A stretch of 33,173 bases of DNA from Acidobacteriota bacterium (GTDB lineage Bacteria > Acidobacteriota > Vicinamibacteria > Vicinamibacterales > 2-12-FULL-66-21): NCBI GenBank assembly GCA_016184105.1, contig JACPDI010000019.1, positions 1 to 33,173 of the forward strand, given 5' to 3'. Numbering within the stretch: position 1 is the first letter of the stretch; each line of letters begins with the position of its first letter. The notes under the pieces are model-generated. The model saw only the letters and a list, made by a program, of their open reading frames with translations, ran no database searches and was not told the origin of the DNA. This document shows positions 20,455 through 24,058 of the stretch, one piece after another. Position numbers and translations under genes: made by a program.

Positions 20455-21663
20455 ATGCAGACCAAAGATCTCGGCATCAACAGCAAGCTGATCCACGCCG
20501 GTCACCGCCCCGATCCAACCGGGGCGGTGACGGTGCCTATCTACCAGACGTCGACCTTCGCGTTCCGCAGCGCCGAGCATGGCGCGGCGCTCTTTGCCGG
20601 CGAGGGTGACGGCTTCATCTACACGCGAATCGGCAATCCCACCGTTCGCGCGCTGGAAGACAACGTCGCCGAGCTGGAGAACGGCTGCGCGGGCATCGCC
20701 ACCAGCTCCGGCATGGCGGCGGTGAACACGGTCTACCTGGCGCTGCTGTCCTCGGGCGGCCACGTCGTCAGCACGGCGTCGGTCTACGGCGCGAGCCGGG
20801 TGTTGCTCGAGGCCGACTACGGGCGGTTTGGGGTCACGGCGGCCTACATCGACACGACCGATCTCGCGGAGGCGCGGCGCGCGATCAGGCCGGAAACGAA
20901 GCTCGTGTACGTCGAGAGCCCGTCGAACCCGTCCATGCAGGTGAGCGACATCGCCGCCATCGCAGCGATGGCGCACGCCCACGGCGCGCTCGTCGTCGTG
21001 GACAACACGTTCGCGAGCCCGTACCTGCAGAAGCCGCTCGATCTCGGCGCTGACGTCGTGCTGCACTCCGTCACGAAGTTCCTCAACGGGCACGCCGACG
21101 TGGTCGGCGGCGTGATCGTGGCGAAGGATCCGGCCGTCCACAAGCGGCTGCGCCGGGCCATGGTGAACTCGGGATGCAACATGGATCCGCACCAGGCGTT
21201 CCTGGTCATCCGCGGGCTGAAGACACTCGGGCTGCGCGTCGAGCGCGCGCAGGAGAGCGCGATGAAGGTCGCGCGCTGGCTGCAGGAGCAGCCGGAGGTG
21301 GCGTCGGTCCGCTACATCGGCCTCGAGTCGCACCCGCAGCACGCCCTGGCGCGGCGGCAGATGACGGGCTTCGGCTCGATGATCGCCTTCGAGCTGAAAG
21401 GGGGCTTCGAAGCGGGCAAGCGGCTGATGGACAACGTCAGGCTGGCGACGCTCGCGGTGTCGCTGGGCGGGGTCGAGACGCTCATCGAGCATCCCGCGTC
21501 GATGACCCATGCGTGCATGAAGCCGGAAGATCGCCGCCAGGCGGGCTTCAGCGACGGGCTGGTGCGTTATTCGGTCGGGATCGAGGACGTCGACGACCTG
21601 ATCGCTGACTTGCGTCAAGCGCTCGAGGCCGCAGCCGCCGCACCGCGCGCGGTGACGGCGTAA
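20455..21663 (+). CDS. PLP-dependent trans-sulfuration enzyme (methionine gamma-lyase/cystathionine gamma-lyase-like)
   Basis: A cytoplasmic fold-type I PLP enzyme of 402 residues from the Cys/Met metabolism family. Key features are YTRIGNPTVRALE, SSGMAAVNT, YVESPSNP, VVDNTFASPY and the PLP lysine Lys208 in HSVTKFLNGHADVVGG. The middle (MDPHQAFLVIRGLKTLGLRVERAQ) resembles methionine gamma-lyases. However, the Cys after the catalytic Tyr (YGC in Pseudomonas methionine gamma-lyase) is Ala here (Tyr111-Gly112-Ala113), so the substrate could be methionine, cystathionine or homocysteine. Such enzymes release methanethiol or H2S, which may matter because a sulfide-oxidation operon follows. ATG 20455 is fixed by an in-frame stop at 20431. 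Confidence 0.88.
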   Translation: MQTKDLGINSKLIHAGHRPDPTGAVTVPIYQTSTFAFRSAEHGAALFAGEGDGFIYTRIGNPTVRALEDNVAELENGCAGIATSSGMAAVNTVYLALLSSGGHVVSTASVYGASRVLLEADYGRFGVTAAYIDTTDLAEARRAIRPETKLVYVESPSNPSMQVSDIAAIAAMAHAHGALVVVDNTFASPYLQKPLDLGADVVLHSVTKFLNGHADVVGGVIVAKDPAVHKRLRRAMVNSGCNMDPHQAFLVIRGLKTLGLRVERAQESAMKVARWLQEQPEVASVRYIGLESHPQHALARRQMTGFGSMIAFELKGGFEAGKRLMDNVRLATLAVSLGGVETLIEHPASMTHACMKPEDRRQAGFSDGLVRYSVGIEDVDDLIADLRQALEAAAAAPRAVTA

Positions 21664-21746: not shown

Positions 21747-21775
21747 TTGCCCCGCACTTCAACATTCAATAGAAT
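21747..21775 (+). promoter_or_regulatory. Promoter of the ArsR-rhodanese/DsrE/SQR operon with operator-like repeat
   Basis: A -35 TTGCCC (21747-21752) and a -10 TAGAAT (21770-21775) are separated by an ideal 17 bp. The expected start falls on or next to ATG 21782, implying a leaderless mRNA. An inverted repeat ATTC-AATA-GAAT (21764-21775) covers the -10. That is a likely place for the ArsR-type product to bind and repress; binding is inferred. Confidence 0.6.
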
Positions 21776-21781
21776 AATGGA

Positions 21782-22477
21782 ATGGACGACGCATCCTCCG
21801 GCCGACGGTTCAAGGCGGCGGTCTACGGCGAGCTGGCGCGGCTCGGGCGCGCCCTCGGCGGCGCGGCGCGCCTGGAGCTGCTCGACCTGCTCGCCCAGCA
21901 CCCGCGCGCCGTCGAGGCGCTCGCGGCGGAAATCGGCCAGTCGATCGCCAACACCTCGCAGCACCTCCAGGTGCTGCGGCGGGCCCGGCTGGTGGAGGCC
22001 GATCGCGACGGCCGCTTCGTTCGCTACCGCCTCGCCAGCCGAGAGGTGGTCGCCCTTGTGCACGCGATCCGCGCGGTAGGGGAGTCGCAGCTCGCCGAGA
22101 TCGAGCGCGCCCGCCGGGAGCTGCTCGAGGGGCGCGGCGCCGTGGAGGCGATCGACGCCCGCGCGCTCCGCGCCCGGATCCGCGAAGGCTCCGTGACGGT
22201 GATCGACGTACGCCCCGAAGACGAGTACCGCGTGTCGCATCTGCCCGGCGCCCTCTCCGTGCCGCTCTCCGACCTGCGCCGGCGCCTGCGCGCGCTGCCG
22301 CGCAGGCAGGAAATCGTCGCCTACTGCCGGGGACCGTACTGCGTGATGGCGGTCGACGCGGTCGCCCTGCTGCGCCGCCGCGGGTTCAACGCCAGGCGCT
22401 TCGAACTGGGCGTCACCGAATGGCAGGCGCTCGGCTATGACCTCGCCCACGGGTCGCCGGCCGGAGCGCGGCCATGA
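21782..22477 (+). CDS. ArsR-family regulator fused to a rhodanese domain
   Basis: A 231-residue cytoplasmic regulator. Residues about 10-95 form a winged helix-turn-helix of the ArsR type (LARLGRALGGAARLELLDLL, then SIANTSQHLQVLRRARLVEA and the wing GRFVRYRLA). A helical linker at about 96-120 leads to a rhodanese domain at about 125-225 (VIDVRPEDEYRVSHLPGALS). The active loop is CRGPYC, Cys182 and Cys187. These are the only two cysteines, so the ArsR part lacks the Cys pairs that metal or persulfide sensors of this family usually carry, and sensing probably occurs at the rhodanese loop. It leads an operon with dsrE-like and SQR-like genes and likely controls it. ATG 21782 fits the promoter. 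Confidence 0.92.
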   Translation: MDDASSGRRFKAAVYGELARLGRALGGAARLELLDLLAQHPRAVEALAAEIGQSIANTSQHLQVLRRARLVEADRDGRFVRYRLASREVVALVHAIRAVGESQLAEIERARRELLEGRGAVEAIDARALRARIREGSVTVIDVRPEDEYRVSHLPGALSVPLSDLRRRLRALPRRQEIVAYCRGPYCVMAVDAVALLRRRGFNARRFELGVTEWQALGYDLAHGSPAGARP

Positions 22478-22824
22478 CCTACCTGCTGATCCTGAACGAT
22501 CCCCCGTATGGCACCGAACGCACGTACAACGGGCTCCGGCTGGCCGGCTCGCTGGGCAAACAGCCGGACACGGCCGTGAAGGTGTTTCTGATCGGAGACG
22601 CGGCGGCGACCGCCAAAGCCGGCCAAAAGCTGCCGAGCGGCTTCTACAACCTCGAACGGATGATCTCCGCCGTCGTCAGGCAGGGGGGCGCGGTCGGAGT
22701 GTGTGGATCCTGCATGGACGCGCGCGGGCTCACGGACGGGGAACTGGTGGATGGGGCCCACCGCAGCTCGATGGACGAGCTGACCCGCTGGACTGTGAGC
22801 GCCGACCGCGTGCTGGTGTTCTGA
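22474..22824 (+). CDS. DsrE/F-like (YchN-type) sulfur-relay family protein
   Basis: A 116-residue cytoplasmic protein of the DsrE fold. The first strand is TYLLILNDPPYGTERTYNGL, followed by VKVFLIGDAA. The conserved cysteine loop is VCGSCMDARGL, with Cys77 and Cys80, and the C terminus is DRVLVF. Members carry persulfide sulfur on such cysteines or are of unknown role. It overlaps the regulator gene by 4 bp (ATGA) and is 1 bp from the SQR-like gene, so the three are one transcription unit. A role passing sulfane sulfur between the oxidoreductase and the rhodanese domain is inference. Confidence 0.88.
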   Translation: MTYLLILNDPPYGTERTYNGLRLAGSLGKQPDTAVKVFLIGDAAATAKAGQKLPSGFYNLERMISAVVRQGGAVGVCGSCMDARGLTDGELVDGAHRSSMDELTRWTVSADRVLVF

Positions 22825-22825
22825 G

Positions 22826-24058
22826 ATGGGCGCGCATGTCGTCATTCTCGGCGCAGGCGTGGGCGGGCAGGTGGCGGCTCATGCGCTTCGCCGCCGCCTC
22901 GGGAGCGGGCATCGCATCACCGTCGTGGAACGCGATCCCCAACATGCGTTTGCGCCGTCGTTCCTGTGGGTGATGACCGGCGCACGAACCCCCGGTCAGG
23001 TTACCTCGCCGCTGGCGAAGCTGCTGGCGCGTGGCGTCAACCTGCACGAGGGCGAGGTCTCGGCGATCGACGTCGCCGGCCGGCGCGTGGAGACGAGCCG
23101 GGGGAGCCTGGAATTCGACTTCCTGGTCGTCGCGCTCGGCGCGGAGTTGGCGGCCGACGCGGTGCCGGGACTATCCGGGCGCTCGCACAGCTACTATTCC
23201 CTCGAGGGCGCGACCAGGCTCAAACCCGCTCTCGACGCGCTGGGGAACGGTGCGAAGGTCGCGGTGCTGGTGGCCGGGCTGCCGTACAAGTGCCCGGGCG
23301 CGCCGCACGAAGGGGCCATGCTCATCGCGGATTACCTGCGCCGGCGCCGGCGGATCGACGTGAGCGTGGACCTGTTCACGCCGGAGCCGCAGCCGCTCCC
23401 GGTTGCGGGGCCGGCGCTCGGCGGCGCCGTCGCCGCGATGCTCCAGTCGCGAGGCGTTGGATTCCACCCGCTGCACAAGGTGGCGTCCATCGCCGACCGG
23501 GTGCTGGCGTTCGACAACGGCGCCTCGGTTCCCTTCGATCTGCTCGTCGCGATTCCGCCGCACCGCTCGCCATCCGTCGTCCGGACGAGCGGGCTGGCCA
23601 ACGAGGCCGGCTGGATTTCCGTCGATCGGCGAACGCTCGAGACGCGAGCCGAAGGCGTGCTCGCGATCGGTGATATCACCGCGGTGCAGATCCCCGGCCG
23701 GTGGAAGCCTGACGTGCCGCTGCTGCTGCCCAAGGCCGGCGTCTTCGCGCACGCCGAGGCCCTGGTGGCGGCCGAGCGCGTCGCCGCCGCGGCGCTCGGA
23801 CAGCCGTGCGACACAACGTTCTGTGGCGATGGGTTCTGCATGCTGGAGGCGGGCGGTGGGGCTGCCGGAGTGGCCTACGGCGACTTTTTCGCCGAGCCCG
23901 CCCCCGAGGTCCGCGTGCGCGACATCGGGGCCGCCTGGCATCTGGGGAAGGTCCTGTTCGAGCAGTGGTGGCTCTCGCCCCAGGGCGCCCGCCGCGCCGT
24001 CCTGGGCGCGGCGCTGCGCGCCGGCAGCCGTCTTACCGGCGTACCGGTGCGTCTCTGA
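22826..24058 (+). CDS. Sulfide:quinone oxidoreductase-like FAD protein
   Basis: A 410-residue flavoprotein of the disulfide reductase superfamily. The FAD site GAGVGGQVAAHALRR is at the N terminus, with ATG and GD motifs at FDFLVVALGAEL and VLAIGDITAVQ. Cys156 sits in PYKCPGAPHEG, the position of the first redox Cys of SQR and flavocytochrome c. A second Cys-rich patch has Cys328, Cys333 and Cys338 (CDTTFCGDGFCMLEAGG). The C terminus (WWLSPQGARRAVLGAALRAG) could form an amphipathic membrane-docking helix, as in SQRs. It would oxidise sulfide to sulfane sulfur and reduce quinone at the inner membrane. A related FAD-dependent oxidoreductase without sulfide activity remains possible. Confidence 0.85.
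   Translation: MGAHVVILGAGVGGQVAAHALRRRLGSGHRITVVERDPQHAFAPSFLWVMTGARTPGQVTSPLAKLLARGVNLHEGEVSAIDVAGRRVETSRGSLEFDFLVVALGAELAADAVPGLSGRSHSYYSLEGATRLKPALDALGNGAKVAVLVAGLPYKCPGAPHEGAMLIADYLRRRRRIDVSVDLFTPEPQPLPVAGPALGGAVAAMLQSRGVGFHPLHKVASIADRVLAFDNGASVPFDLLVAIPPHRSPSVVRTSGLANEAGWISVDRRTLETRAEGVLAIGDITAVQIPGRWKPDVPLLLPKAGVFAHAEALVAAERVAAAALGQPCDTTFCGDGFCMLEAGGGAAGVAYGDFFAEPAPEVRVRDIGAAWHLGKVLFEQWWLSPQGARRAVLGAALRAGSRLTGVPVRL

Follow-up and report, generated by a model that had tools for sequence, protein, structure and literature searches.

A conserved two-cysteine rhodanese loop in an ArsR-rhodanese fusion as a candidate sulfane-sulfur switch

Known ArsR persulfide sensors and the fusion protein

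In a similarity network study of ArsR proteins, all known persulfide sensors fall into one cluster and share a cysteine pair in α2 and α5 (PMC10509353). The two cysteines are 66 residues apart in SqrR (Cys 41/107) and BigR (Cys 42/108; PMC9774590), and also in sHdrR (Cys 50/116; PMC12423496), which is the spacing of positions 35 and 101 in the protein described here. Because the network dropped sequences longer than 150 residues, fusions of an ArsR domain with a rhodanese domain are missing from this map. The ArsR-rhodanese architecture is already known and not new; a paper from 2013 mentions regulators with rhodanese-like domains, ArsR being one example (PMC3817168). In the open-licence literature searched, no study of how such fusions sense was found. 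Here we characterize one fusion, encoded in a stretch of 33,173 nucleotides from an Acidobacteriota bacterium (contig JACPDI010000019.1 of assembly GCA_016184105.1, the whole stretch being referred to as the window). Based on its sequence and that of its relatives, we propose, with a probability of roughly 50%, that it represses its own sulfide/sulfane-sulfur operon and senses via its rhodanese loop.

The fusion gene (21782..22477, + strand) encodes 231 residues. The domains and cysteines, the operator and its overlap with the promoter, and the gene order and conservation described below were all computed. Pfam placed an ArsR helix-turn-helix (HTH_5) at residues 29-72 (21866..21997, +; 34.6 bits, cut-off 22) and a rhodanese domain at residues 126-216 (22157..22429, +; 57.2 bits, cut-off 22.2), in agreement with the ArsR-rhodanese fusion that an earlier note on this DNA had read from the sequence. 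A score of 67.2 bits for HTH_metalloreg (cut-off 55) assigns the protein to the ArsR/SmtB family, while the fold and the six-residue loop CRGPYC with its catalytic cysteine identify the C-terminal part as a rhodanese. An AlphaFold2 model built from a 30-row alignment (mean predicted local distance difference test score, pLDDT, 90.7; predicted template modeling score, pTM, 0.83) shows two helices between both domains (residues 87-103 and 105-118, α5 and linker; 22040..22135, +). Using Foldseek, the nearest solved ArsR domain was the Mb0332 fragment 3gw2 (43% identity, TM-score 0.90 to target) and the nearest rhodanese fold was BH2092 (3nhv). The translation also bears out what the earlier note had said of the cysteines: HTH_5 contains none, and the only two of the entire protein are Cys182 and Cys187 of the loop C182-R-G-P-Y-C187 (22325..22342, +), within YCRGPYC.

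Family matches were found in 13 of 60 relatives (E<=1e-20) and, within the phylum, in 30 of 396 genomes (E<=1e-25); each number includes the genome that the window comes from. The matches besides its own have 43-58% identity and, together with 80 named loci from a scan of named genomes, show that the fusion is not a chance open reading frame. The named loci, partly found with the pattern VAYCRGPY, are the 80 best among 312 and are spread over 14 named phyla (Acidobacteriota included) plus four unranked loci. From 118 loci we obtained an alignment of 117 usable rows including the window, with one identical protein merged and locus L042 omitted, for which the reading frame caller left just 10 residues. 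Unpatterned genome searches contributed 37 rows and the patterned scan 79.

Both loop cysteines (CRGxxC) are kept in all 117 rows, i.e. in 37/37 unpatterned rows, 79/79 patterned rows and the window. Since the search pattern favours Cys182 while Cys187 lies outside it, Cys187 and the 37 unpatterned rows constitute the fairer evidence. Pro185, Tyr186 and Val188 vary among the rows, with Cys182 and Cys187 invariant. Judged from this alignment, the two-cysteine loop is a property of a wide fusion family and not just of the window protein. Having exactly two cysteines is, on the same basis, common and not universal among family members (59 of 117 rows, further cysteines being present in the other 58).

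Within the window's own genome, seven rhodanese loops could be read: CRIGERS, CRSGLRS, CKSGVRS, CQGGYRA, CS-TGA-PSEHTS, CGGGVS and that of the fusion, which is the only one with a cysteine at +5; some rhodanese domains of this genome yielded no readable cysteine loop. The loop with an in-frame TGA (YCS-TGA-PSEHTS) belongs to a selenoprotein-like rhodanese (L167, G000:C21:109902-110177, - strand), and the genome also encodes a tRNA-Sec with anticodon TCA (L177). A selenoprotein reading was considered for the family loci L014 and L042, which contain in-frame TGA codons, and was rejected, as both retain CRGPYC with ordinary cysteines; the aligned stretch has the two TGA codons of L042 close to its ends and does not reach those of L014.

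The two cysteines of E. coli YgaV align with Asp35 and Glu101 of the fusion. Column 35 is acidic (Asp or Glu) in 113 of the 117 rows and column 101 is Glu in 103, and none of the 117 rows has a cysteine at either column. The fusion is therefore not a SqrR/BigR-type sensor, and the absence of this cysteine pair from the ArsR domain is as the earlier note had described it. The NCBIfam model NF040642 gave 40.1 bits (cut-off 155), which is a strict test because control genomes, E. coli among them, also stayed below the cut-off, and the TsoR model NF045707 gave 47.1 bits (cut-off 115). The Cys-x-Cys metal box in α3 of ArsR/SmtB metal sensors is likewise absent from the fusion, which has no cysteine before residue 182, and no family row has a cysteine at columns 41-49.

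Promoter and conserved operator

A single sigma-70-type promoter, TTGCCC-17-TAGAAT, was predicted between 21600 and 21900 (21747..21775, + strand, -10 at 21770-21775; 9 of 12 matches), whereas shuffled sequences gave a mean of 0.0 promoters. Were transcription to start 7 bases past the -10, the transcript would begin with the ATG at 21782, making a leaderless mRNA possible. The predicted operator, ATTCAATAGAATAATGGAAT (21764..21783, +), was obtained from a family footprint and an assembly scan. It has one mismatch to ATTCAA-N8-TTGAAT, covers the predicted -10 and extends as far as the second base of the ATG. The earlier note had pointed to ATTC-AATA-GAAT over the -10. This element is indeed located at 21764-21775, where it overlaps the predicted -10, but it is not the register that is conserved best. 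The family shares a larger operator, ATTCAA-N8-TTGAAT, of which ATTC-AATA-GAAT represents the left half plus part of the spacer. Of 115 distinct upstream regions, that of the window being one, 50 contain exact ATTC-N12-GAAT and 11 contain ATTC-N4-GAAT, with the window having both.

ATTCAA-N8-TTGAAT was found with up to two mismatches in 82 of the 115 regions and with up to one in 69. As the motif was derived from the same set of upstream regions, shuffled sequences and a spacing scan served as controls. At up to two mismatches, 20 rounds of dinucleotide shuffles, carried out for spacing 8 only, gave a mean of 1.2 and a maximum of 3 regions; coding stretches gave 0 of 114, and other spacings between the half-sites (0 to 15) were seen in at most 29 of the 115 regions. 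Twelve of the 14 named phyla contain the operator with up to one mismatch, and the remaining two are represented by one locus each. Using a matrix constructed without the window, the window site ranked first in the 33 kb, scoring 23.8 and 18.4 bits on the two strands, and the best non-overlapping site scored 3.7 bits. It is also the sole site with up to one mismatch in the assembly (4.24 Mb, completeness 95.98). There are 13 further places with two mismatches compared with 1 for a reversed control, an excess which means that weaker real sites could exist in this genome. ATTC-N8-GAAT, which we take to be the SqrR operator although the papers searched for it showed no operator, is present in exact form in none of the 115 upstream regions. 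In several upstream regions (L010, L018 and L065), a third TTGA half-site follows the operator's right half at a distance of 8 bases (TTGATTACTTGA), which suggests a longer or overlapping operator.

Operator sites were additionally mapped in the 80 named loci, again allowing up to one mismatch. Within 150 bases upstream of the fusion gene, 53 sites were found in 51 loci, and 13 further sites lie elsewhere. Five of these are at or just before a called gene start: TauE/SafE exporter genes in L085 and L106, an SQR/FCSD-like gene in L096 and Pyr_redox_2 reductase genes in L105 and L126, with the sites in L085, L096 and L105 overlapping the start itself. Another site in L105 precedes a 106-residue open reading frame without Pfam match. 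Genes near a site, although not starting at it, encode an ABC protein (L063), a methyltransferase (L068) and a dimeric pyridine nucleotide reductase (L078); the four remaining sites are in L061, L090, L116 and L126 (its second site).

Sulfur genes downstream and in family neighbourhoods

The gene following the fusion encodes a DsrE/DsrF-like protein of 116 residues according to Pfam, with Cys77 and Cys80 in a CxxC motif (22474..22824, + strand). Its start overlaps the stop of the fusion gene by four bases (ATGA). Next is a gene for an SQR/FCSD-like flavoprotein of 410 residues (22826..24058, +), identified by profile matches and homolog alignment, with conserved Cys156 and Cys338. The fusion likely heads an operon with these two genes. 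Both DsrE cysteines are present in 34 of 34 fusion-adjacent homologs covering them, and Cys156 is kept by 25 of 26 fusion-adjacent SQR-like homologs, Cys338 by 24 of 24.

We analyzed 100 neighbourhoods of the family (80 named loci and 20 relatives, at least one place being counted twice, L055 = L153). Neighbours were counted by tblastn in place of Pfam tallies, which were based on a crude longest-frame caller and are probably undercounts. A DsrE homolog was found in 37 neighbourhoods, an SQR-like homolog in 27 and a major facilitator superfamily (MFS) transporter in 31. At E<=1e-10, at least one of DsrE, SQR, MFS and TauE is present in 47 of the 80 named loci and in 18 of the 20 loci from relatives. 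As the own genome (4.24 Mb) contains a single DsrE homolog, DsrE is unlikely to be a chance neighbour. The profiles, the conserved cysteines and these neighbourhoods identify the neighbours of the fusion as sulfur genes, which supports the sulfur-related reading of the earlier note. The MFS transporter is a frequent partner of the fusion (e.g. L066:6617-7954) and may move sulfur compounds; none is found directly beside the window fusion. A gene of the PF04116 fatty-acid-hydroxylase family lies upstream of the fusion in 11 of 77 scanned named loci. The Cys/Met-metabolism gene upstream in the window (20455-21663) was considered as a conserved partner and rejected, with a homolog in 1 of 100 neighbourhoods.

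The position of the DsrE gene also bears on a different explanation, in which the rhodanese is a working sulfurtransferase that relays sulfur to DsrE and repression is relieved through this traffic or through contact with DsrE, with no bridge between Cys182 and Cys187. The directly downstream, overlapping gene, the two DsrE cysteines of its homologs and the occurrence of DsrE near more than a third of the fusions (37 of 100) would fit this model, as would the six-residue loop with Arg183, as in sulfurtransferases. No DsrE homolog is found in the other 63 neighbourhoods, however, and Cys187 is invariant in the usable rows although a plain sulfurtransferase presumably needs one cysteine. We consider this relay unlikely.

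The neighbours argue against a general dithiol switch, where the CX4C loop would respond to oxidants, electrophiles or soft metals without being specific for sulfane sulfur. A dithiol ArsR protein that senses H2O2 has been described (RexT; PMC10509353), so that chemistry of this kind has a precedent. DsrE, SQR-like and TauE genes are sulfur genes, however, and the loop is part of a rhodanese fold, making such a switch quite improbable.

Proposed switch and comparison with known systems

Given that the predicted operator covers the fusion's own -10 and start codon, that sulfur genes follow and that the loop thiols are invariant, sulfane-sulfur sensing via a rhodanese persulfide would be the simplest explanation. 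From this we infer the following sequence of events. As a dimer, the ArsR-type repressor, whose C-terminal rhodanese would be the sensor domain, would bind the operator and thereby shut off its own operon, comprising the fusion, the DsrE sulfur carrier and the SQR/FCSD-like flavoprotein. Once persulfide or polysulfide levels rise through sulfide oxidation, Cys182 would accept outer sulfur, forming a rhodanese persulfide. Cys187, which is five residues further along at loop position six, may then close a disulfide or polysulfide bridge; such a Cys182-Cys187 bridge is plausible. From the loop, the change would travel via α5 and the linker helix and reach the winged helix, which would let go of the DNA, and the sulfur-clearing operon would be made. 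The interpretation of the earlier note is partly supported; its sensing route, through a catalytic persulfide or a bridge between the two loop cysteines and on through the helical linker, is a good hypothesis. A more general and more tentative proposal is that the fusions form a widespread ArsR class in which the catalytic CRGPYC loop acts as an allosteric switch for release from ATTCAA-N8-TTGAAT, Cys182 being the acceptor and Cys187 the resolving thiol; we think this could well be so, at somewhat less than even odds.

Several counts weigh against our proposal. None of DsrE, SQR, MFS and TauE (E<=1e-10) is found in 33 of 80 named neighbourhoods, and 22 of 80 contain an MFS transporter. No identified sulfur gene goes with eight of the 13 additional operator sites, and 33 of 115 upstream regions are without an operator at up to two mismatches. 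The CxGPxC loop is also found in the stand-alone rhodanese BH2092 (YCWGPAC) and is thus not peculiar to sensors. At least one extra cysteine precedes residue 181 in 57 of 117 rows (none in 60), with Cys38 in 23 rows, Cys90 in 18 and both in 17.

As these 17 rows carry the pair within the ArsR domain (e.g. L026, L028, L047 and L049), a second sensing site may exist in a subset of members. It could further be argued that Cys38 and Cys90 are the family's actual sensor, that the rhodanese supplies the sulfur and that the window lineage, which does not have the pair, senses more weakly or differently. The two cysteines do co-occur strongly (Fisher p 1.4e-14, uncorrected for kinship). On the tree, about three independent pairs agree on Cys38/Cys90 and almost none are opposite, which is not significant, and just 17 of 117 rows are concerned. 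Their positions also differ from the SqrR-equivalent pair 35/101. The rows branching next to the window (L023, on a long branch, L053, L035 and L040) are without the pair as well, so its recent loss in the window lineage is unsupported. We regard this explanation as very improbable and prefer sensing by the loop pair Cys182/Cys187.

If sensing via the rhodanese loop is true, a catalytic sulfur-transfer loop would double as a sensor, a large set of regulators would gain a sulfur-related function and a lead would be available for the mycobacterial relatives of Rv0324. The conserved operator is defined well enough for directly testing the sensing reading.

With respect to these relatives, we take Mb0332 of M. 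bovis to be the counterpart of Rv0324 of M. tuberculosis, which presumably ends in a rhodanese. The Mb0332/Rv0324 structures (PDB 3gw2 and 2kko) comprise residues 1-100 only, and in a Mycobacterium sp. genome the Mb0332 ArsR stretch best matches (48%) an ArsR-rhodanese fusion with CRGPYC. The part of PMC9480834 available ties Rv0324 to bedaquiline tolerance and nutrient limitation, and not to sulfur. The rhodanese BH2092 (PDB 3nhv and 3o3w) resembles the fusion in its loop; its chains of 126-144 residues match the rhodanese part only, and Trp instead of Arg follows the first cysteine. In the CstR-cst operon of Staphylococcus, CstA combines rhodanese and DsrE parts, and CstR is a CsoR-family protein without rhodanese. 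ChrB of Ochrobactrum tritici is a regulator with a C-terminal rhodanese-like region, as in the fusion, but is chromate-responsive, and its narrow specificity is contrasted with the ArsR and MerR families in PMC3817168.

The closest described systems are SqrR, BigR, YgaV, SoxR, sHdrR and HlyU, with which the fusion shares the ArsR winged helix and the linkage to sulfide-oxidation genes. In the SqrR/BigR/YgaV group the cysteine pair is found in α2 and α5, whereas the fusion has Asp35 and Glu101 at these positions and a rhodanese fused to it. E. coli, where the gene after ygaV is the rhodanese gene ygaP, offers a two-gene counterpart of the fusion. By its likely function, the fusion is akin to the ArsR sulfur sensors, while lacking the cysteines that define the SqrR/BigR group.
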